Positions 7,791 through 17,136 of a stretch of DNA of 39,937 nucleotides are shown here, piece by piece (positions within the stretch are counted from its first letter, which is position 1; each line of letters opens with the position of its first letter). The stretch spans positions 1-39,937 of the forward strand of contig JAKAUU010000021.1 of the NCBI GenBank assembly GCA_021817505.1. The letters run 5' to 3'. The notes beneath the pieces are model-generated. The model made no database searches. It had not been told where the DNA came from and was given only the letters and a program-made list of their open reading frames with translations. The stretch comes from Microcaldota archaeon (lineage in GTDB: Archaea > Micrarchaeota > Micrarchaeia > Micrarchaeales > CABMGC01). The position numbers were made by a program, and so were the translations under genes.

Positions 7791-7880
7791 ATAATAAAAA
7801 TAAACGCCAGATAAGATAGCGTGGTCATTTGTCAAGCGCTTTGTTGGAGGCGAATGTAAGTATTTGTTAATATTTGTTAA
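7791..7880 (+). repeat. Accessory-region repeat, copy A
   Basis: Most degenerate copy of the dispersed repeat. It shares ATAAAAATAAACGC, the central CATTTGTCAAGCGC and GAATGT blocks with the other three. The part matching the tRNA acceptor end in B and C reads AACGCCAGATAAGA here (7803-7816), so it belongs with copy D. It lacks the T-arm-like extension seen in C and D. The AAGCGCTT core is palindromic. Confidence 0.8.
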
Positions 7881-7930
7881 CATTAAATAATAATCTGTAA
7901 TAGATGTACATTTCGTCGTAAGCCAAAAGA

Positions 7931-7940
7931 TATATTTATA
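7931..7940 (+). promoter_or_regulatory. TATA box of the methyltransferase-like gene
   Basis: TATATTTATA is a strong archaeal TATA match. Transcription would start about 25 bases downstream, near 7961-7964, giving a leader of roughly 12 bases to ATG 7976 or a leaderless TTG start at 7964. Confidence 0.5.
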
Positions 7941-7975
7941 AATGAGAATTTTAATTTATTTACTTGATTACAACA

Positions 7976-9538
7976 ATGTCCAGAGTCAGAACTATAACTA
8001 CACCTGAAAAGCACTACGATAGTGATCCAGCTAAGGCTAAGGTCCATACTATGCTGGGTGAAATGCTTGATGCCACCCTGCTCACTTTCAGGAAACCTTC
8101 AGAGATAAAAGTATTGCATTTTGCAGGTATAGATGCGCAGGAAACAAAGGCAGTATACCTTTCAAGGGGAATACTCCCACAAAACATAACTACTTTGGAA
8201 AGAGATCCGGAGATAGCAAGAGCTATAGAGTCACAGTCTCTAGGGATAAAAATAATCAATTCAGATCTTGAAGATTATGTAAGAGAAACTGCAAGATTCG
8301 GACATAATGTTATAAGTCTTGATTTTACCGGTCCATTATCTGATTCAACCATGTCCTCAATTGGCAAGCTTCTACACTCTTCTACTGAACGTAACATCGT
8401 TTTGCATACAGCAAATCTTTTAAGAAGAAACCGAGAAGAGTTTCTAGCAGTTACCGGGATAGATGCCATAAATACCTCCCCAAGATTAATGGGAACCGGA
8501 AGTAATTATACATTCTTAGCCGATAGCCTTGAAAGAGACCAAAGCGATTTAAATAAGGATAATCTGAAGGAGCTAAGGTTAAAAAATTATCCATATCTTA
8601 TCTTGGATTCCATACTAGTGAAAGATAACGATGGAATAATGACGTTTCTAAATTTCTTAAATGCGGAATTTAATCGACAAGATGATCTCACAATTTCAAA
8701 ACTAATTAAAGGAGCGCTCAGGGAAAACGAAATTTCCAAAAAAAGCGGCGTAGATAAATTTTCAGAGCCTATCTTCCATGATATACGAAGAATACATCAC
8801 AATATGAGAAGCGCCTATGCAATAATTCATGCTCTAGGGGAACCATATGGATTGACCGGAAGAGGAACAGAACTTCTGATCGAATCTCTACAAAATGCGT
8901 GCATTAATCCGTACATGCCACAAAAAAACACTAACTATTCATATATATCAGAATCTGGATCTCCGATGAGCGGAAGCATATTCTATCTGCAAAGAAGCAA
9001 ATATCTATATGATGCCGCGTGTGATGTTGCAAGAGCATGCGGATTTCCAATCAGATTCCAAATAAATGATATTAAAGGGTTTACTGCTGCGCTTAAAGTT
9101 TATAGAAGAATCCGTGCTAACCAACACGATGCTTATTACGATGTAATTGACCACCAGGCAACTGAAATACATTTTCTAGGCAATTCTTCCAGACCTGTGT
9201 TAACTAAAAAGAGATTTCTAGAAGCATTAGAAGAGGGCCTGTCAATAGATCAAATCCAGAAAAAGTTTAGAGGCTGGGCAGCCAAACCACTTGCACAATG
9301 GAAGGCCCATCATACTATGGGCACCTATGACACGACCAGACAGGATGAACAAGAAACTATAACTGTAACAGCTGATGATAAGGATGTAGAACGAATAAGC
9401 AAGGACGAAGCACTTGAACTCCTATCTGCAGGAATTCCTCCCAAAGAGATATTTGATGCATATCCTACTTCTTTCACTACTAGGCAGCTCGGGGCTCTAA
9501 AAGCCCACATTACAATGGGTACCTATATAAGAGATTAA
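7976..9538 (+). CDS. Methyltransferase-like protein with two C-terminal AHxTMGTY repeats
   Basis: About 520 residues, not recognised as a named family. Residues ~45-135 read like a class I SAM-methyltransferase Rossmann core: KVLHFAGIDA (glycine loop), then ITTLERDPEIARAI (acidic end of strand 2), then INSDLEDYV, then NVISLDFTGPL (strand 4). A long middle region of unknown fold follows. The C-terminus holds two similar ~45-residue units (encoded near 9200-9334 and 9395-9529), each with an acidic helix, a G-L/I turn and a closing K-A-H-x-T-M-G-T-Y; these look like helix-turn-helix-type DNA-binding modules. The gene sits right after repeat A under its own TATA box. A role in DNA modification or replication of a mobile element is inference. 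A TTG at 7964 is an alternative start. Confidence 0.6.
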   Translation: MSRVRTITTPEKHYDSDPAKAKVHTMLGEMLDATLLTFRKPSEIKVLHFAGIDAQETKAVYLSRGILPQNITTLERDPEIARAIESQSLGIKIINSDLEDYVRETARFGHNVISLDFTGPLSDSTMSSIGKLLHSSTERNIVLHTANLLRRNREEFLAVTGIDAINTSPRLMGTGSNYTFLADSLERDQSDLNKDNLKELRLKNYPYLILDSILVKDNDGIMTFLNFLNAEFNRQDDLTISKLIKGALRENEISKKSGVDKFSEPIFHDIRRIHHNMRSAYAIIHALGEPYGLTGRGTELLIESLQNACINPYMPQKNTNYSYISESGSPMSGSIFYLQRSKYLYDAACDVARACGFPIRFQINDIKGFTAALKVYRRIRANQHDAYYDVIDHQATEIHFLGNSSRPVLTKKRFLEALEEGLSIDQIQKKFRGWAAKPLAQWKAHHTMGTYDTTRQDEQETITVTADDKDVERISKDEALELLSAGIPPKEIFDAYPTSFTTRQLGALKAHITMGTYIRD

Positions 9539-9568
9539 AAATAAGCACTAAATTAACTCTAATTTATG

Positions 9569-10495
9569 CTATGGATTTTTAGGCGTCCACAAAAACCAGC
9601 TGTTTTCTGTGCTATTCCTAAAACCTATTTTCTTATAGAAGCCCTGAGCATCATCCGTAGTAACGTGGACCACTTCCGCACCTAACTCATTTTCCCAAGC
9701 CAATGCCTCTTTTACAAGCTTGCTACCTATGTTCTTGCCACGTGCCTTTTTTGTGACTACTAATTCTTCTATGTATCCATATCTGGATTTTCCATAAGAG
9801 GTAAATGTAGCCAGTAAGAAGCCAACCACCTTATTGCCTTCACGGGCAACAAACGTCTTGCTCTTAAGTAATGGCGTGCCTACTTTGGCTATTCCGCCTT
9901 TTTGTCTTTTAGGGTAAAGTTCATAGTAAAGATCCGTAACGCCATAAGAATCAGATCTTTTAGCCTCTGATATAGTTATGTTTGATTCCATGTTAACATG
10001 CCTAGTTATTACTGATAATAAAACTTCTGGTTCAGAAGCACCATTTAAGATCGTAAATCCTTTCTTTTTTGCAACCGTATCAAGTTTTTTAACATACTCT
10101 AACTGCCGTATACCCGAATATGCTTTCCCATCTCTTTTCCTGAGCCGTTTATCCAGAGTCTTTATACTGACTTTAAGGTAATATATTTCATCAAACATCT
10201 CTGTTATCTCAGGTATGTTGTGTGATAACGCAAACACTACAACAGGGCGTTTTTTAATTAAAACTCTGAGTTTTTTCTCATCTATGCAAAACTTATGGGT
10301 CTTAAACCATTTTTGACTTGGCCTCACTGGAAACCTTACTTTATTTCCTTTCATATCGATCCATTTCGATAGCCCACTTACCGAATCAGTATCTATTGCA
10401 TTTACTCCTTTAGCACTAAGTTTACTTGATAAAAACGTTTTTCCAGAACCTTCTGCCCCAACTACTAATATTGCTTTGTCATGCACTACTATCAA
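9569..10495 (-). CDS. Fusion of a P-loop kinase-like domain and a GNAT acetyltransferase
   Basis: The 308-residue protein has two domains. The N-terminal half (~1-165) opens with a Walker A loop GAEGSGKT, then a DTD triplet, and resembles small-molecule or nucleoside kinase folds (AAA_33/shikimate kinase-like). The C-terminal half (~172-305) is a GNAT acetyltransferase, with motif A residues EELVVTKKARGKNIGSKLV and a typical GFYKKIGF end. The combined activity is unknown; substrates could be antibiotics, polyamines or tRNA/protein amines. The gene is convergent with the methyltransferase-like gene (30-base gap) and divergent from two further GNAT genes within the same repeat-bounded module. 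The start is ATG at 10495; a second in-frame ATG is not near. Confidence 0.75.
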   Translation of the reverse strand: MIVVHDKAILVVGAEGSGKTFLSSKLSAKGVNAIDTDSVSGLSKWIDMKGNKVRFPVRPSQKWFKTHKFCIDEKKLRVLIKKRPVVVFALSHNIPEITEMFDEIYYLKVSIKTLDKRLRKRDGKAYSGIRQLEYVKKLDTVAKKKGFTILNGASEPEVLLSVITRHVNMESNITISEAKRSDSYGVTDLYYELYPKRQKGGIAKVGTPLLKSKTFVAREGNKVVGFLLATFTSYGKSRYGYIEELVVTKKARGKNIGSKLVKEALAWENELGAEVVHVTTDDAQGFYKKIGFRNSTENSWFLWTPKNP

Positions 10496-10601
10496 ATATC
10501 AAACGTTTCATATGCTTAATAACCTTACTCAAGAGGACCTCAAGAAATTTGGCTGAGTGGCATATCTTATTAAATCTGTATTCTAAAAATTAACTGATGC
10601 T

Positions 10602-11135
10602 ATGGCGAGCACATCGAAATTCAAGATAAGGCCACTCCGGTGGAATGATTTTGATGATTATTGCAAAATTTGGCGTTCATTGCAGGAGGAATTGGACAAA
10701 GATCCAAGGCTTACGATGGGCAGGTATAAGGAAAGGGCAGACTGGGAGTTCTTAATCACAGGCTTTTCGGATCTATACAGGGAAATCAAAGCCAGAAGTG
10801 CAAAATCACTTGTCTTAGAGGCGGACGGGCATGTTGTCGGGCTGTGCTCCATAAGGCTCTCAGGATCCACGCATGCGCAACACACCGCAGACCTGACATA
10901 CTATGTAATCAAGCAGTATAGGGGGAAGGGCATGGGCACGGAATTGGTAAAAGAGAGCTTGAAAGACGTTCCTAAAAAATGCGAGATAATTACTGCAGGC
11001 ACGCACAGCAACAACAAGGCTTCAATAGCATTACTTAAGAAATTCGGCTTCAAAAGAGTTGCTTTTATGCCAGGTTTCTCCAAAAGGGGAAAGACATACT
11101 TAAACGTGGAAGAGTATTACAAGAAAGTCAAGTGA
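10602..11135 (+). CDS. GNAT-family N-acetyltransferase
   Basis: At 177 residues this is a single complete GNAT domain. Acetyl-CoA binding motif A is visible as YYVIKQYRGKGMGTELV, and the C-terminal LLKKFGFKRVAFMPGF matches the RimI-like strand-helix end. The N-terminus (FKIRPLRWNDFDDYCKI) is the usual first strand. It acetylates an unknown amine substrate. Its stop overlaps the ribosome-binding GTGAT of the next GNAT gene, so the two are translationally coupled. It could act on proteins (RimI-like) or on small toxic amines. Confidence 0.85.
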   Translation: MASTSKFKIRPLRWNDFDDYCKIWRSLQEELDKDPRLTMGRYKERADWEFLITGFSDLYREIKARSAKSLVLEADGHVVGLCSIRLSGSTHAQHTADLTYYVIKQYRGKGMGTELVKESLKDVPKKCEIITAGTHSNNKASIALLKKFGFKRVAFMPGFSKRGKTYLNVEEYYKKVK

Positions 11136-11139
11136 TAAA

Positions 11140-11667
11140 TTGTCCAAATTCAAAAATCCTCCAAATGCACACACAACGCAGAACAAAATAAGCCTTGCAA
11201 GACTTGAAGATGCCATTCCGGTAGCCAAGCTATTGCAAAGGGTTATGTACCAATGGAAAGATTACTTTACAACTGATTTTATAGGAGGACTTATTGGTAA
11301 AAATGAGGTATATCTGATCTACAGTGAAGGGCAAATGGCAGGCACCATATCGATGAGCACTGATTCTTCATGGGCAACCGATGAAAGAAAACAGGTCAAA
11401 TGGCATGACGAATCTGCAAAAGCACTGTACATATATGATCTTGCAGTTCTTCCAGAACACCAGAATAAAGGTCTTGCTTCTGAGCTCTTACACGAAGTTG
11501 AGGAAGAGACTAAGAAACGAGGGATAAAATATCTAAGAGGCGCAGCCATATCTGATAATCCTAACCTTATCGAATTTTATAAAAAGAGGAACTACACTGT
11601 GGTAGGCAAAGGAAAGGTAAACTGGTGGAAAGAAGACGTCAATTTCATAGAAAAAATCATAAAGTAA
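11140..11667 (+). CDS. GNAT-family N-acetyltransferase, second of a coupled pair
   Basis: A 175-residue GNAT domain with motif A in IYDLAVLPEHQNKGLASELL and the closing NLIEFYKKRNYTVVGKGKV. It starts at TTG 11140, preceded by GTGAT with a 3-base spacer; that GTGAT contains the stop of the upstream GNAT gene. Its own stop codon lies inside the first bases of repeat copy B, so the gene ends exactly where the repeat begins. The substrate is unknown. Together with the P-loop/GNAT fusion it makes three acetyltransferase domains in one small module. Confidence 0.85.
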   Translation: MSKFKNPPNAHTTQNKISLARLEDAIPVAKLLQRVMYQWKDYFTTDFIGGLIGKNEVYLIYSEGQMAGTISMSTDSSWATDERKQVKWHDESAKALYIYDLAVLPEHQNKGLASELLHEVEEETKKRGIKYLRGAAISDNPNLIEFYKKRNYTVVGKGKVNWWKEDVNFIEKIIK

Positions 11668-11775
11668 ACCCTTCCGAGTACATTCCGACTTCAAATAAAA
11701 ATAAACGCTGGGTACGATGGTATGTGCATTTGTCAAGCGCTTTGTTTAAGGTGAATGTGGGCGTTTGGTATAAGT
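11664..11775 (+). repeat. Accessory-region repeat, copy B
   Basis: The copy begins with GTAAACC (overlapping the GNAT stop) and a diverged version of the CCGACGTTA block. It continues through ATAAAAATAAACGC, CATTTGTCAAGCGC and GGTGAATGT. Positions 11704-11717 are identical to the 3' end of the tRNA-Ser gene (acceptor strand, discriminator and first T-stem bases). AAACGC near the left and GCGTTT near the right form a short inverted pair. Confidence 0.85.
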
Positions 11776-11792
11776 AACATGGAATATATGCG

Positions 11793-12197
11793 TTAGTCTA
11801 CAATGTTCATCCTGCTCTCTTCTTTCAGTAGCCTGTCAAAAGTAACTAATGTCAGTATGCCCTGTGTTTTGCACATTGCAATTATGCTGCAGTCTGTAAA
11901 GCTTAAACTTAACTTTTTCTGTGCCTTAAACACACGCCAAGCTTCAAGAAACAAGGACGAGTCCATGTTTAGTACAGAAACAGTATCAAGAATTTTGTTC
12001 CCAGTTTCTATAGTCTTTGCAAAGTTGCCGGTCCTGGATAGCAGTGTGGTCATTGTCTCATCAAAGATATAATCGGTGATTACTGCCGTTCCATATTTGT
12101 CGTTATCTATTTCTTTTGCTATTTTAACTGCTTTTTCATGGTATTCATCCTTTTCATTAGAGTACGCTACCAAAAAGCTGGAATCCAGGAATATCAT
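11793..12197 (-). CDS. vapC: PIN-domain toxin (VapC-like)
   Basis: A PIN-fold endoribonuclease of about 134 residues from ATG 12197. The acidic metal-binding residues are visible: IFLDSSFLVA (first Asp), DYIFDETM (Glu), SFTDCSI (Asp) and TFDRLL (Asp). VapC toxins cut tRNA or rRNA when freed from the antitoxin. The ATG at 12197 is preferred over an upstream start at 12263 because PIN domains begin right at the first strand. The antitoxin gene ends 4 bases upstream. The pair forms its own operon between repeats B and C and probably stabilises the module. Confidence 0.88.
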   Translation of the reverse strand: MIFLDSSFLVAYSNEKDEYHEKAVKIAKEIDNDKYGTAVITDYIFDETMTTLLSRTGNFAKTIETGNKILDTVSVLNMDSSLFLEAWRVFKAQKKLSLSFTDCSIIAMCKTQGILTLVTFDRLLKEESRMNIVD

Positions 12198-12201
12198 CAG
12201 A

Positions 12202-12429
12202 TTACCTATACAGCACCTTATCAATCTCAGTGCTAGAATGCTCCGTTCCTTTTCCCCAGTCAAATGTTGGAATGTCTGAAAGCTTTCCTTTAGGTTTCTC
12301 GCTGCGCGTTTTAAGCCATAGTTCTATCGCTTGGGTAAGTGCGTCGCCAATCTTTAGATCTTCTTCGGCTGCCTTTGCCTTAAGCTTTCTGAAAATGCTC
12401 TCCTGTATATTTCTTATAGTAATATTCAT
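12202..12429 (-). CDS. vapB: VapB-like antitoxin with ribbon-helix-helix N-terminus
   Basis: About 75 residues. The N-terminal MNITIRNIQESIFRKLKAKA strand followed by two helices is a ribbon-helix-helix-type DNA-binding fold. The C-terminal half is proline-rich and charged (PKGKLSDIPTFDWGKG) and would wrap the toxin. It lies directly upstream of the PIN toxin gene. The ATG at 12429 gives the usual RHH start; an ATG four codons upstream is also possible. Antitoxins of this kind repress their own promoter. Confidence 0.82.
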   Translation of the reverse strand: MNITIRNIQESIFRKLKAKAAEEDLKIGDALTQAIELWLKTRSEKPKGKLSDIPTFDWGKGTEHSSTEIDKVLYR

Positions 12430-12532
12430 ACAAATCATCAATGTATTACATGTATAACTAAATATATAAATATTGGCATTTGCCAGCTATCACTAATATA
12501 AATAGATTATGTAGACTGAACCCCGAACCTCC

Positions 12533-13600
12533 TTATGACAAAAACGCTATAATCCTATTTGAATTATTATACGTCCACACTGCAGAATTAAAGCAATTAT
12601 ATAAATTATCTGTTTTTACTTTAGCAGAATTTTTCTGCAGAAGCCAGTAAGTATAATTAAAGAAATCTATATAGTGCGATATCATCAGATTAGGTATAAA
12701 CTTTATCTCTGATGACTTGATACTTCGATATTTTCTATATGTGTCAATGAAGCATTTTGCTTTTTGGAGGTCTATCTCATAACCATCTCTTTCTTTACAA
12801 GAAAATTGTATGAAGTTTGCAATGTCTTTAATTATAGTGTCATTTAGACGACCTACATTATCAAAGTCTATAATGCCGGTCAAATTTTTTCCATTCCAGA
12901 TTAAGTTATCTGGTTTGATGTCCGTATGCAGCGGATACGTTTTTAGACCATTATAATTATCTACTTTGAGACCTTTTAGAATCTTAACTAAAACCATATC
13001 CATTCTTAAAAATTCAGCATCTTCTTTATTCTTTTTCTTCTTTTCAGAAGCCACAGATTCCATCTCTAGGGCAAAACCCAATATCGCTTTCTTGAAAAAT
13101 GGATCTGAAGTTGACTTTCTAATACCTACGGAATTTTTCCTAATAGCGAGTTCATGATACTCAGCCATCATTTTAGCTACTACTTTTAATTCTTGAAGAT
13201 TAAGGTTTTTTCTAACCTGGCCATCAATATACTTATATACCCAGAATAATTTCCCGTTATATGTGATAAACTCTGTTTTTTGTGTACTTAGAACCGGAAT
13301 TGGTATTTTATATATAAAACCTTTGGACTTTAGGTATTTTAGACACTCAAATTCAAATTCCAAAGATTTCTTATCCTTGAACCTGCTAACTTCCCTAAGT
13401 ACGAATCTGCCTTTACCATTAGTTATAATCCAGTTATTGTTCACTACACCTCCTTTCAATGCACTATATTTATAACTGACTATTCCCCAATTAGACAGCA
13501 CTCTGCCAATCTCAGATTTAGTTAACCCCATACGAAACACACGCGCTATAGGATTAGTATTTAGTTCGGGTAAATTTAAATCACATGTGTCTAAAAGCAA
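12533..13600 (-). CDS. APH/ThrB2-type small-molecule kinase
   Basis: At 355 residues this belongs to the aminoglycoside phosphotransferase/choline kinase fold. The catalytic loop is LHTDIKPDNLIW (H225, D227, N232) and the metal-binding loop is IDFDNVG (D245, D247). The N-lobe carries GGVVNNNWII and FVLREV, with a lysine/arginine pair typical of the family. Overall layout is closest to type II homoserine kinases, which would supply threonine synthase. Because it sits in the accessory region between repeats B and C, a resistance-type or cargo role is equally possible. The start may instead be ATG 13531 (MGLTKSEIGRVL), which would remove 23 non-conserved residues. Confidence 0.75.
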   Translation of the reverse strand: MLLDTCDLNLPELNTNPIARVFRMGLTKSEIGRVLSNWGIVSYKYSALKGGVVNNNWIITNGKGRFVLREVSRFKDKKSLEFEFECLKYLKSKGFIYKIPIPVLSTQKTEFITYNGKLFWVYKYIDGQVRKNLNLQELKVVAKMMAEYHELAIRKNSVGIRKSTSDPFFKKAILGFALEMESVASEKKKKNKEDAEFLRMDMVLVKILKGLKVDNYNGLKTYPLHTDIKPDNLIWNGKNLTGIIDFDNVGRLNDTIIKDIANFIQFSCKERDGYEIDLQKAKCFIDTYRKYRSIKSSEIKFIPNLMISHYIDFFNYTYWLLQKNSAKVKTDNLYNCFNSAVWTYNNSNRIIAFLS

Positions 13601-14004
13601 TAATAATTTACATACACGCTTTTAGATAAAACTCCACACGGAACTCCACCCAACTGATGTGAAGTCCTGTTATCTGGAGCATATTTACAAGAATCGAACA
13701 CGTAAACCTTCAGAGCACAGCCCGACGTTAAATAAAAATAAACGCTGGGTACGATACCATGGGCATTTGTCAAGCGCTCTGTTAAGGGTGAATGTTGGCA
13801 TTTGCTAATATTTATTGACAACGGTGCTAAAACGATCCTCGGCTTTGCTCGTTATTTGATACTATCTATTATGACTAAAACAAACTGAATTTAGTATGGC
13901 ACACAACTTGATAGTACTGTATATTAATATTTACGATTCACAAATGAACTGTGAAGGTTTGTCATACAGGTTATATCTTTAATATTTAATCCAGGAAATT
14001 ATCT
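13601..14004. other. Non-coding spacer holding repeat C
   Basis: No credible gene. It holds repeat copy C (13682-13825), a following AT-rich stretch similar to the one after repeat D, and an AT-rich promoter-like segment (GGTTATATCTTTAATATT, ~13968-13985) just before the membrane protein gene. Confidence 0.6.
13682..13825 (+). repeat. Accessory-region repeat, copy C
   Basis: Long copy of ~144 bases. It opens with TACAAGAATCGAACACGTA (13686-13704), matching the tRNA-Ser T-arm at 17 of 19 bases. AACCTTCAGAGCACAGCCCG and the shared ATAAAAATAAACGC block follow. Positions 13741-13754 are identical to the 3' end of the tRNA-Ser gene. It ends with TATTTATTGACA, shared with copy D. Confidence 0.88.
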
Positions 14005-14520
14005 ATGGTTAAAAAGAAAATAACTGAGAAAAAACAGAGTCAAACAGTACGGGTAGCTAAATATGCTGGTATATTAGTCTTGGCTCTAGTTTTAATCGCA
14101 TTATTCCTATCTATTATCCCAGGTTTAGATAACAATCCTTTAGTTTCAAATGTTTGTTCTGCTTCAAGCGGATATACGTGCAGCGGCATTACTATTAGTA
14201 ACTCTGGATTACTTAGTTTTACATTGACTCAGAACACTGGCCAAGCAGAATATAATGTTACTCTTTACCTTACTACTCAATCTAATGGATTGAACACAAC
14301 AAATCCTAATTATACTGTTTCGATTTATCTAGGGCCCAAATTACTTTCAGGGCATAGTGTTAATGTAAGTGTTCAACTCAAACCAGATATGCTTAATGGC
14401 CAAAATCAAAGTACAAACTACAGTGGCTATGCAGTTCTATCATATAGCAACACGAAAAATAACCCTCTAGATATATCTATACAAGTAGCTGGAATAATTG
14501 CATTTGCACAGTTTAAATAA
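14005..14520 (+). CDS. Membrane-anchored extracytoplasmic beta-rich protein (paralogue 1)
   Basis: 171 residues. A basic N-tail (MVKKKITEKK) precedes one membrane segment at ~20-42 (ILVLALVLIALFLSII), giving an N-in anchor. The outside domain is Ser/Thr/Asn-rich with several N-glycosylation sequons and opens with two cysteines eight residues apart (C-SASSGYT-C), likely disulphide-bonded. Its sequence is clearly homologous to the gene at 15736 (shared GxxLPxFT-like, NTGQAEYNVTLY and LKPDMLN blocks), and the promoter regions are similar too. The function is unknown. A short secreted-protein remnant follows immediately. Confidence 0.75.
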   Translation: MVKKKITEKKQSQTVRVAKYAGILVLALVLIALFLSIIPGLDNNPLVSNVCSASSGYTCSGITISNSGLLSFTLTQNTGQAEYNVTLYLTTQSNGLNTTNPNYTVSIYLGPKLLSGHSVNVSVQLKPDMLNGQNQSTNYSGYAVLSYSNTKNNPLDISIQVAGIIAFAQFK

Positions 14521-14535
14521 AAATTAGGTTTATGC

Positions 14536-14649
14536 GTGAAGACGTACTATATCATCCATTTTATGATTACGGCCTCTATACTAATCTGTATAGCATATGC
14601 TCAAATACCGGCGCCCCAACCATATTGGGCAGGGTTTACTACTTACTGA
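14536..14649 (+). pseudogene. Truncated secreted-protein remnant (signal peptide plus WAGF)
   Basis: From GTG 14536 the frame gives a 37-residue product. It has a hydrophobic signal-peptide-like start (MITASILICIAYAQ), then PAPQPYWAGFTTY and a stop. PYWAGF resembles the N-terminal N-W-A-G-Y motif of eqolisin-type (peptidase G1) secreted proteins. It occupies the same place behind paralogue 1 that a longer decayed copy occupies behind paralogue 2. Another open frame of 49 codons from ATG 14532 overlaps it and has no recognisable features. The remnant reading is an inference. Confidence 0.4.
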
Positions 14650-14770
14650 GGGATCTTTCAGGCTGCAAACCTGGGATTTAGTTCACAGGCAGGACCAAGC
14701 ACCAGATAATATTTATTAGTGCTAACTATTAAGATTTCCTATTTTATACGCTTCTTTAATATGCCTAATC

Positions 14771-15052
14771 TCACTTAACATGCTTTCTGTAAAAATTGTC
14801 CCAGCTTTCGAATTCTAAAAAGATAATCTTATTTGCATTTTTATCATAAGAATAAGACAATACAAATGAACTGCCTATGTGAACTCTTCTAAGTCCAAAG
14901 AGATTTGACCTTAACGGTTTGCCTGTTTCAGGATTCTCCAATATTTTGTCGATTTGCTTTAGTATTGCCTTGTATGTTGTCATATCCCTTTTCTTTATCT
15001 TAGCCAAGATTTTTACTAAACTTTCATCTATGCTATGCTCAGATACGGGCAG
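14771..15052 (-). CDS. RelE/ParE-type toxin, probable CTG start
   Basis: RelE-superfamily ribosome-dependent RNase-like toxin of about 93 residues. The core reads ILENPETGKPLRSNLFGLRR then VHIGSSFVLSYSY and a final FLEFESWDNFYRKH, the order seen in YafQ/RelE relatives. The first standard start is TTG 15007. However, the frame is open upstream, and the added residues (P-V-S-E-H-S-I-D-E-S-L-V-K-I-L) fit the missing first strand and helix of the fold. The only near-cognate start there is CTG at 15052. The antitoxin gene ends 24 bases upstream. Confidence 0.72.
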   Translation of the reverse strand: MPVSEHSIDESLVKILAKIKKRDMTTYKAILKQIDKILENPETGKPLRSNLFGLRRVHIGSSFVLSYSYDKNANKIIFLEFESWDNFYRKHVK

Positions 15053-15076
15053 ACAACCAACCTATAATTATCTTTT

Positions 15077-15346
15077 TCAGGCCTTGTAACCAGTAACAAT
15101 CCTGTCAAGATCCTGAATGTTCTTAAACTTGATTGTTTTGCGCTTGCCACTTGCTATGTCTTTTGCCATCTTATTAAGTCTCTTTAATGTATCTATCTTC
15201 ACTTGGCTTTCTGTAGGACGAGTGTCTTCATTCTTCAGTTCAATAAGTACCTCTTCCATCAATTCCTTGATTTTGTCTAATTTTGCATTTATGCTGTTGC
15301 TATCTTCCTGTACTTGGATTGCTTTCATAACTGCCACCAAAGACAT
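15077..15346 (-). CDS. Antitoxin partner of the RelE-like toxin
   Basis: 89 residues, mostly predicted helix with heptad-like spacing. The middle (LDKIKELMEEVLIELKNE) looks like a dimerising coiled coil and the C-terminal part is basic (SGKRKTIKFKNIQDLDRI). I recognise no named antitoxin family. The assignment rests on position: it is directly upstream of, and on the same strand as, the RelE-like toxin, with a small overlap-free gap. The start is ATG 15346, or ATG 15328 (MKAIQVQ). Confidence 0.6.
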   Translation of the reverse strand: MSLVAVMKAIQVQEDSNSINAKLDKIKELMEEVLIELKNEDTRPTESQVKIDTLKRLNKMAKDIASGKRKTIKFKNIQDLDRIVTGYKA

Positions 15347-15735
15347 TATGCTTATTCTAATTTTTAATACTTTCTAGTTGTTCAGAAAACAGAATAAAAT
15401 TTATGCTAACAAGTGATATATTACGAGAATCGAACACGTAAACCTTCAGAGGACAGTCCGACGTTAGATAAAAATAAACGCCGGATAAGATGGCACTGGC
15501 ATTTGTCAAGCGCTTTGTTTAAGGTGAATGTGGGTGTTTGGCAATGTTTATTGACATCAGTGCAGGAAAACAATTCTGACTGCTTTTACTTACCGTTGGT
15601 ATCATCTAATGTAATTAAGATGGAATGAAAAGAGTTAACCCTACCACTTATAGTAAAGTATAATAATATTATAATTAACAAATTACCTGTGTAGGACTGG
15701 TATACAGGCTGTATCTTTAATCTGGGGAATTAAGA
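15347..15735. other. Non-coding spacer holding repeat D
   Basis: No credible gene. It contains repeat copy D (15417-15562) and an AT-rich stretch ending in ACAGGCTGTATCTTTAATC just before the second membrane protein gene. That end is closely similar to the sequence before the first paralogue. Confidence 0.6.
15417..15562 (+). repeat. Accessory-region repeat, copy D
   Basis: Long copy of ~146 bases. It opens with TACGAGAATCGAACACGTA (15422-15440), which differs from the T-arm of the intact tRNA-Ser (16741-16759) at a single base. AACCTTCAGAGGACAGTCCG follows, and then the common blocks. Its acceptor-like segment reads AACGCCGGATAAGA (15477-15490), as in copy A rather than B and C. Confidence 0.88.
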
Positions 15736-16224
15736 ATGATTAAAAAGAAGCATAATCCGGTAGTTAAATATGGGGTTATTGGAGTTGTATTAATCTTAAT
15801 AGGCGTGGTGGTTCTTCTGTCTTCTAGCATTATGATGGGTCCAGATAATCCTCCTCCCCCTCCTACTTCGAGTGCATGTTCTATTTCAACAGGTTATATA
15901 TGTAATAATGTTACTATCACTAATTCTGGTTTACTGAATTTTACATTTATTCAAGATACTGGTCAATCAGAATACAACGTGACTCTTTACTTTACTACTG
16001 TTGGATTGAGTACCACAAATTCAAATTATACCACTTCAATCTATCTTGGATCTGAATTGGCATCAGGACAACCAGTTAAAATAAGTGTCCCTCTCAAACC
16101 AGACATGCTAAATCATAATCATGATACGAACTACGAAGGCTGGGTAAATTTATCATATAGTAATACAAAAAACAACACTCCGAATGTATCTATACTGGCA
16201 GTTAGAATAGTTGCATTTTCATAG
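15736..16224 (+). CDS. Membrane-anchored extracytoplasmic beta-rich protein (paralogue 2)
   Basis: 162 residues, homologous to the protein at 14005 over its whole length. A basic N-tail (MIKKKH) and one membrane segment at ~10-33 come first, then a short proline linker (PPPPPT). The outside domain starts with C-SISTGYI-C and contains TNSGLLNFTF, TGQSEYNVTLYFTT and LKPDMLNHNHDTNY. Several N-x-T/S sequons suggest surface exposure. The function is unknown. A decayed eqolisin-like gene follows on the same strand, as a remnant does behind paralogue 1, so the two-gene unit was duplicated together with the repeat. Confidence 0.75.
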   Translation: MIKKKHNPVVKYGVIGVVLILIGVVVLLSSSIMMGPDNPPPPPTSSACSISTGYICNNVTITNSGLLNFTFIQDTGQSEYNVTLYFTTVGLSTTNSNYTTSIYLGSELASGQPVKISVPLKPDMLNHNHDTNYEGWVNLSYSNTKNNTPNVSILAVRIVAFS

Positions 16225-16260
16225 CATCCATAACTCAAACAAGAACTTAGGGTTTACCTA

Positions 16261-16640
16261 TTGGCAAAAATAATCTCATTTCTTTTCTGATTGTAGTCTG
16301 TATAGTACGTACTGAAGTATTTACACCAATGTTTCCATCACATACTAGGTAGGATATTATATAACACAACCAAATGTCATCGGAGTGAATGCTTCATGGA
16401 CAGTTCAAAATATGCCAACACATTCATCAATCCAGGGATCTTCGGCCCAGTGGGTTGGAATTGGGTGTTTATTTAAGTCAGATTTAATTCAAATATGTAC
16501 ATCTTCAGATAATTATTGTCCTATTCTTCAGAATTGTACTCCGATATGCGCTGCTGGTATGAATTTATTCCTGCTAGCTACTTTTCATTTACAGGTTATC
16601 AGTCTGTTTCCATACCATAACCTGCCATGAGAATCTTTCG
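16261..16640 (+). pseudogene. Decayed eqolisin-like (peptidase G1-type) secreted protein
   Basis: Reading across frames gives a signal-peptide-like start from TTG 16261 (AKIISFLF, then frame-shifted LIVVCIV). Next come V-G-Y-Y (a TAG stands where a Trp of the N-W-x-G-Y motif is expected), TQPNVIGVNASWTVQNMP, SSAQWVGIG and SDLIQI. After a further frame change comes WYEFIPASYFSFTGYQSVSIP, ending in TAA at 16618. The order W-x-G-Y, WVGIxG, LIQxG, aWYExxP is that of eqolisin-fold glutamic peptidases, and WYE would hold the catalytic Glu. At least two frameshifts and one in-frame stop show that it is dead. The family assignment is from motif order only. Confidence 0.55.
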
Positions 16641-16676
16641 GTGTTCGATTCTGTGCCCTATTTAGTACCTGATTGC

Positions 16677-16721
16677 AAATGTTTATGAACATTTACCCTA
16701 TTTTGCAGCACCAGCGCTGCA
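16677..16721. other. Two perfect stem-loops downstream of tRNA-Ser
   Basis: TGCAGC-ACCAGC-GCTGCA (16704-16721) and AAATGTT-TATG-AACATTT (16677-16694) are perfect 6- and 7-bp hairpins. They begin 13 bases past the tRNA 3' end on the minus strand. They may act in transcript end formation or mark recombinase binding. Confidence 0.45.
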
Positions 16722-16733
16722 CAAATAGTATAA

Positions 16734-16817
16734 CGCTGGGTACGAGAATCGAACTCGTAGAGGCATTACTGCCGAACAGGTTAGCAACCTGCCGCCATAC
16801 CACTAGGCGAACCCAGC
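16734..16817 (-). tRNA. tRNA-Ser (anticodon GCT)
   Basis: The minus strand folds as a class II tRNA. Acceptor stem GCTGGGT pairs with ACCCAGC and the discriminator is G. There is a 3-bp D stem (GCC/GGC) and an anticodon stem GCAGG/CCTGT around loop TTGCTAA (anticodon GCT, reading AGC/AGT serine codons). A long variable arm has a GGCA/TGCC stem, and the T arm is ACGAG-TTCGATT-CTCGT. CCA is not encoded and there is no intron. The 5' end lies 3 bases after the SRP RNA 3' end, so both should come from one transcript. Its 3' end faces the accessory array and is the presumed attachment site. Confidence 0.97.
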
Positions 16818-16820
16818 ACA

Positions 16821-17117
16821 TGCAGCAGAAACCCGCCTTGCATCAAGCGGATATGTAAGCTGGTTTGCATGTCTGCTCAATCCTGTATCTTTAGAGCATA
16901 GGTTTTTATACGCATGGTGAAGGTCCACCTATACTATGTACTTAGGGTTGCTCCTTCCGGCCTGGCCCGGTTCATATACAAAACTACCGCCAAAGGCAGG
17001 ATCTCAACGCTTCCATGCAAGGCCGACATATCCGGCATAACACTCAACAGGCATAAGGCCCGCCATGAAGAGGATTTGCGGTAAAGGAAACCTCTAGCTC
17101 CCTGCCCTTCTGCTGCA
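16821..17117 (-). ncRNA. ffs: SRP RNA (7S RNA), full length
   Basis: The minus strand contains the conserved helix 8 of signal recognition particle RNA, GGCCAGGCCGGAAGGAGCAA, with the GGAA tetraloop and the asymmetric AGCA loop bound by SRP54. The ends pair as helix 1 (TGCAGCAGAA at 17117-17108 with TTCTGCTGCA at 16830-16821). Further long-range helix 5 pairs are CGGATATG/CATATCCG, TTGCATG/CATGCAA and ATCCTG/CAGGAT. These give a length of ~297 nt, normal for archaeal 7S RNA. A TATA box lies ~25 bases upstream of the 5' end. Helix 6 is not obvious to me. Confidence 0.93.
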
Positions 17118-17136
17118 ATAAGATTGACCACTATAA

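Follow-up and report, generated by a model that had tools for sequence, protein, structure and literature searches.

How does an archaeon come to carry a row of small, unrelated gene groups beside a single tRNA gene? DPANN archaea have very small genomes, and little is known of how they gain genes. The window, meaning the whole stretch of 39,937 nucleotides analysed here, is one complete contig of an 839-kb Micrarchaeota genome that is 84% complete (16% unrecovered). In it, four copies of a non-coding repeat delimit modules of accessory genes that end at an intact tRNA-Ser(GCT) (Table 1).

Table 1. Positions of the features discussed (window coordinates unless another contig or locus is named)
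Feature	Position	Strand	Description
Repeat copy A	7793-7883	+	old tRNA-Ser 3' flank, variant core, L-arm; distal island border
Repeat copy B	11652-11770	+	partial right half, core (11704-11717), L-arm
Repeat copy C	13681-13827	+	T-arm-like 19-mer (13686-13704), right half, core (13741-13754), L-arm
Repeat copy D	15416-15563	+	T-arm-like 19-mer (15422-15440, 18/19), right half, variant core, L-arm
Module 1	7964-11667	mixed	524-aa protein, P-loop/GNAT fusion, two GNATs
524-aa protein	7964-9538	+	family unassigned
P-loop/GNAT fusion	9569-10495	-	
Two GNATs	10602-11135 and 11140-11667	both +	
Module 2	11793-13600	-	PIN toxin and RHH antitoxin (VapBC type), APH-family kinase
Module 3	14005-15346	mixed	membrane protein, ParE/RelE-fold toxin, small partner gene
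171-aa membrane protein	14005-14520	+	
ParE/RelE-fold toxin	14771-15007	-	
Small partner gene of the toxin	15077-15346	-	
Module 4, 162-aa membrane protein	15736-16224	+	paralogue of the module 3 membrane protein
tRNA-proximal end motif with hairpin	16661-16732	.	same motif and place in G014 and G028, partly in G092
Intact tRNA-Ser(GCT)	16734-16817	-	insertion target; 3' end at low coordinate
Conserved non-coding stretch	~16900-17130	-	upstream of tRNA-Ser
tRNA-Val(CAC)	G000:C30 (L193)		41-nt imperfect 3'-end copy 0.88 kb off; one nucleotidyltransferase gene enclosed
tRNA-Thr(TGT)	G000:C18 (L177)		24-nt 3'-end copy 1.43 kb off; APH-type kinase enclosed
tRNA-Cys(GCA)	G000:C30 (L183)		18-nt 3'-end copy 0.98 kb off; GNAT-like gene enclosed (family from sequence only)
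60-nt direct repeat pair of congener G001	L050, 2123-2182 and 7691-7750		72% identical; unrelated to the window repeat

The initial annotation had reported four repeats in the same orientation, and all four were recovered as direct copies with pairwise identities of 69-86%. When the recovered genome (34 contigs) was searched, only copies A to D were found (E 1e-50 to 1e-17), with one further match of 14 bases at tRNA-Ser itself (16732-16745). The repeat is thus restricted to the tRNA-Ser locus, and the idea of a genome-wide dispersed repeat was rejected. The core of B and C, AACGCTGGGTACGA, shows the claimed identity, in 14 of 14 bases, to the 3' end of tRNA-Ser(GCT), two of these being flanking bases; by a rough estimate such a match would occur by chance in fewer than 1 in 10,000 comparisons at these lengths. 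Copies A and D have a common variant core, AACGCC[A/G]GATAAGA. To the right of the core, an L-arm (CATTTGTCAAGCGCTTTGTTTAAGGTGAATG and onward) is common to all four copies; to its left, a right half is common to B, C and D and missing from A. The T-arm-like 19-mer that opens C and D matches tRNA-Ser in 17 and 18 of 19 positions, respectively, so that two tRNA pieces are present there in permuted order, and it is right at this 19-mer that the homology between modules 3 and 4 starts. The view that the repeats are tRNA-Ser-derived has to be narrowed: all four do hold a piece of the tRNA 3' end, but only ~14-33 of ~130 bases are tRNA-derived. The remainder is a conserved element end. Single-strand folding of the repeats was comparable to that of shuffled sequences (MFE z -1.8 to 0.2) and no Rfam family matched them at the gathering threshold, for which reasons a structured RNA was rejected.

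The distal border offers a view of the locus before the modules arrived. In the sister species G005, an orphan tRNA-Ser end has to its left a sequence that can be aligned with the one to the left of A (up to AATAAAAATAAACGC); in both species this comes immediately after the same small gene and the isocitrate dehydrogenase gene. This alignment suggests that the ancestor's tRNA 3' flank probably lay at copy A. If so, the DNA between A and the tRNA is added, and B, C and D would each join one element to the next, which is what serial insertion predicts. Among the five species of the window's own genus that were examined, none showed an empty site. At the proximal border, the hairpin motif recurs in three species of other genera (Table 1) and is missing from most of their congeners; such patchy conservation of motif and arms would be expected of mobile ends, although it is not proof. 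The motif resembles the inverted L-arm only weakly (E = 2 within the window), and its reading as an inverted copy of that arm is suggestive at most.

The gene content of the modules was broadly as first described, with the exception of the 524-aa protein of module 1: its label as methyltransferase-like is unsupported, since Pfam, NCBIfam and PADLOC gave nothing above cut-off. Modules 3 and 4 are homologous (68% over 859 bp, membrane-protein gene included; 59% identity across 135 aa between the two proteins) and duplication may have contributed to them. The remaining modules have only the repeat in common, and thus appear as different cargo behind conserved ends. Module size was 1.2-3.9 kb in the window and 0.5-2.5 kb in relatives. 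Matches to the membrane-protein family of modules 3 and 4 occurred in 66 of 79 genomes of the Micrarchaeota family; the paired small proteins are possibly pilin-like surface proteins.

Within the genus, the locus is framed by citrate synthase and isocitrate dehydrogenase on one side and by tRNA-Ser and aIF2-beta on the other, and what lies in this frame was different in each of the five species examined. In place of the four modules of the window genome, G003 has a Schlafen/AlbA_2 protein and an exonuclease-like gene, G004 one RelE/HigB-type pair, G005 two PIN-type toxin-antitoxin pairs, and G001 (Candidatus Micrarchaeota archaeon DBS1-1.bin141) a long variable island on a contig that stops before the far flank. 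The variation in modules between related genomes that the initial annotation had envisaged is thus present, and indicates module turnover at tRNA-Ser. The window's L-arm was found again beside tRNA-Ser of G001. Used as an exact degenerate pattern, the arm matched G001 alone among the genome contigs (the window's own record possibly lying outside this search) and nothing among the viral contigs; a virus or plasmid carrying the same arm was not seen by this pattern. Beside the same tRNA-Ser, G001 also has a second pair of 60-nt repeats (Table 1) that encloses 5.5 kb with a number of genes, one of them for a KaiC/RecA-like ATPase; this pair is perhaps another class of module end.

Across the family, each species' own tRNA end was compared with the DNA downstream of tRNA-Ser at 48 other loci. 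Eight species (G003, G036, G069, G098, G024, G006, G068 and G067) had orphan tRNA-Ser ends scoring at least 13.5, whereas control searches with reverse-complemented or reversed DNA never exceeded 13; G005 is a ninth species, by synteny rather than score. The distance from the tRNA downstream to these 3' fragments is 0.5-2.5 kb, and the cargo of the relatives' modules, assigned by Pfam, comprises HicAB, VapBC, polymerase-beta nucleotidyltransferase-HepT, PIN and ParE/HigB-type toxins and other small modules. The empty site was seen in two pairs of sister species. The alignment of G032 with G068 (79% over 1647 bp) reaches into the G032 tRNA 3' end; this end is the counterpart of the G068 orphan end, after which ~1.19 kb of other DNA precedes the intact G068 tRNA. 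G064 and G006 align at 72% over 2051 bp, with ~0.64 kb inserted. Both alignments show precise insertion with ~14-16 bp duplicated, and the tRNA-Ser 3' end emerges as an insertion hotspot across this Micrarchaeota family. A second conserved arm (AGGAAAAGTTCGGTTCTGAAACGATATC...) follows the orphan core in G068, G067 and, in another genus, G024; in G067, the genes behind this arm are different ones. Across genera, the HicAB units of G024 and G068 are 90% identical over 558 bp, that of G024 sitting between exact 24-bp repeats. A match to the repeat model 2.4 kb from tRNA-Ser of G099 (E 0.004 for one genome, 79 having been searched) is tentatively a core plus L-arm.

The same anatomy was observed at other tRNAs of the window's genome. 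In a survey of up to 8 kb downstream of each (several just 0.5-1.5 kb), displaced 3'-end copies enclosing single genes were found at tRNA-Val, tRNA-Thr and tRNA-Cys (Table 1), so that the tRNA-Ser array is the largest instance of a pattern that recurs in this genome. Downstream matches for tRNA-Lys (1.1 kb) and tRNA-Gly(gcc) (3.3 kb) turned out to be intact neighbouring tRNAs and not orphan ends.

Which enzyme could have moved the modules? A six-frame search of the recovered genome (84% complete) gave no match to tyrosine (PF00589) or serine (PF00239) recombinases and no integrase fragment anywhere, and Cas1 (PF01867), Y1 transposase (PF01797) and an integron integrase were likewise missing from it; PF00589 was also missing from three congeners. 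The statement that no recombinase is encoded in the region can therefore be extended to the whole recovered genome, and within that sequence a resident serine recombinase or Y1 transposase was rejected. Gene annotation revealed no integration genes in the window, gene content alone gave no sign of transfer genes, and no ICE or IME relic was seen in the modules. In the family as a whole, integrases are frequent: 53 of 79 genomes have a match above cut-off. In G079, the tRNA-Ser 3' end lies ~110 bp from the start of a tyrosine integrase gene whose assembled sequence is frameshifted; this element is without the window's arms.

We favor, with a probability of roughly 0.6, the reading of the region as an accretion island of integrase-less modules at tRNA-Ser(GCT), probably integrated by tyrosine integrases in trans. 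Small recombinase-free modules would have been inserted serially at the tRNA 3' end, each insertion keeping the tRNA whole and displacing the earlier tRNA-end copy outward. The repeats would then be junctions made of a short tRNA-derived core and the conserved L-arm as element end, plus the conserved right half between modules. As to the chemistry, it is most likely that tyrosine integrases provided in trans by visiting viruses, plasmids or larger elements would have acted on the module ends and recombined them site-specifically with the 3' end of the tRNA. The exchange region and one half-site constrained to resemble the tRNA would together make up the 14-16-nt core. Insertion at the tRNA, the doubling of its end, conserved ends around unlike cargo and the exchange of modules between species are shown by the sequences; the enzyme class, the action in trans and a continuing mobility of the modules are what we infer here, the tyrosine integrases of visiting elements being favored by the abundance of integrases in the family and by the G079 integrase at tRNA-Ser. 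A resident enzyme might still be encoded in the unrecovered 16% of the genome. Since core lengths range from 13 to 41 nt, more than one enzyme or process may be at work. Of the two readings offered initially, repeated integration or accretion at one tRNA is well supported by the orphan ends, the empty sites, the turnover within the genus and the other tRNAs, whereas an integron-type cassette array is unsupported; an attC-like array was rejected for want of an integron integrase and of folding beyond that of shuffles. Neither a helper element nor an excised form was seen, so that the modules are satellites only putatively; strain variation within the species was not seen either.

The modules could also be decayed remnants of integrase-bearing islands, strict CIMEs, whose own integrase was later deleted, leaving the cargo between attachment sites. 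Bacterial islands usually take this path, first decaying to CIMEs and then undergoing accretion (PMC5704250), and the frameshifted integrase gene of G079 at the same tRNA fits such a course. We nevertheless hold it to be unlikely: the six-frame search of the recovered genome brought up no trace of an integrase, the modules are compact and end near both borders, and the same ends enclose different cargo, across genera too. That the array arose mainly by local tandem duplication, with the repeats being a non-coding RNA or regulatory element and not recombination junctions, is very unlikely. The homology of modules 3 and 4, gene included, and the wide distribution of their membrane-protein family in the host family speak for it; the remaining modules, alike in the repeat only, the chance-like folding, the empty Rfam result and the tRNA 3'-end sequence inside the repeats speak against it, and the precise same-place insertions at the empty sites of relatives already disfavor it.

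A non-tyrosine enzyme (Cas1-like, Y1/HUH or unknown) that inserts modules at tRNA ends and duplicates its target would account for the several cases in which 13-16 nt are duplicated at one and the same place, and for the hairpin near the tRNA at the proximal end. It is an improbable candidate given the missing Cas1 and Y1 transposase in the recovered own genome, a duplication length that is not fixed (13 to 41 nt) and the want of clear terminal inverted repeats, the resemblance of proximal motif and L-arm being weak. Unlikely, too, is a wider proposal, a shared Micrarchaeota cassette system in which minimal modules with dedicated ends of ~70-130 bases would be moved between tRNA 3' ends and genera by an enzyme unrecognised as a mover. 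It would be a DPANN counterpart of integron cassettes with tRNA genes as platform.

Among known systems, the Dehalococcoides ssrA islands are closest. They lie in tandem downstream of one RNA gene, bounded by 20 bp copies of its 3' end with ~85 bp conserved around the repeats, and 15 islands are without an integration module (PMC3146451). The locus described here shares the tandem order, the RNA-gene 3'-end copies, the conserved surroundings and elements devoid of an integration module. The ssrA islands, however, are bacterial, larger and targeted to tmRNA, and many have a serine-recombinase module, whereas here the recovered genome yielded no recombinase and most modules measure 0.5-4 kb. By this analogy, the island may best be read as a small-scale archaeal version of cis-mobilizable elements (CIMEs). 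This general class comprises elements that stand in tandem at a tRNA, each between attachment sites, and have no integration genes (PMC5704250); the island resembles them in the 3'-end copy at the distal border, the intact tRNA, the attachment-like sites between tandem elements and the absence of integration and, by gene content, transfer genes. It differs from them in that CIMEs are bacterial and defined as decayed ICEs or IMEs, of which, as of an integrase, no relic is seen here.

In archaea, integration at tRNA 3' ends, tandem integration and elements trapped in the chromosome are documented (PMC8371274, PMC6563490). Archaeal integrated elements are normally viruses, plasmids or casposons, larger and equipped with a tyrosine integrase that the modules lack; in contrast to SSV1- or pNOB8-type elements, no such integrase, whole or split, is present in the recovered genome (PF00589). 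As to casposon features, the inverted likeness of L-arm and proximal motif is weak and duplications span 13-41 nt; a casposon was rejected because the casposase, Cas1, is missing from the recovered genome. CALINs are rows of small gene modules between recombination sites; an integrase is missing locally, and the enzyme is believed to act on them in trans (PMC11389934). The present rows of modules between repeated sites are similar in this respect, but their sites hold the local tRNA end and fold within chance, and the integron-type integrase of a complete integron, which a CALIN does not require, is missing from the recovered genome. Distinct here are the small size, the recovered genome free of recombinases, the spread over several tRNAs and Micrarchaeota genera, and the dedicated conserved ends. 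No paper on such Micrarchaeota islands was found in the literature searched, most subscription journals lying outside it. The tRNA-Ser locus and the three other tRNAs offer a concrete route of gene gain, by recombinase-free micro-islands with toxin-antitoxin pairs and modifying enzymes, and with the sites and ends defined and sister species offering the empty state, the question of what moves the modules becomes testable.

Some further observations concern the surroundings of tRNA-Ser. The conserved non-coding stretch upstream of it in the window is present in most relatives and, with no Rfam match at the gathering threshold, has motifs that resemble archaeal SRP RNA. In G093 (L061), 0.2-3.5 kb downstream of tRNA-Ser, a gene run is led, by eye, by a VirB4/HerA-like ATPase and includes several membrane proteins; it may belong to a transfer element integrated at the same tRNA. 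Related proteins of 300-440 aa with, by eye, an Lrp-like look occur near tRNA-Ser in three genera (L055 of G079, L050 of G001 and L140 of G092), perhaps as a gene that elements at this tRNA carry recurrently.
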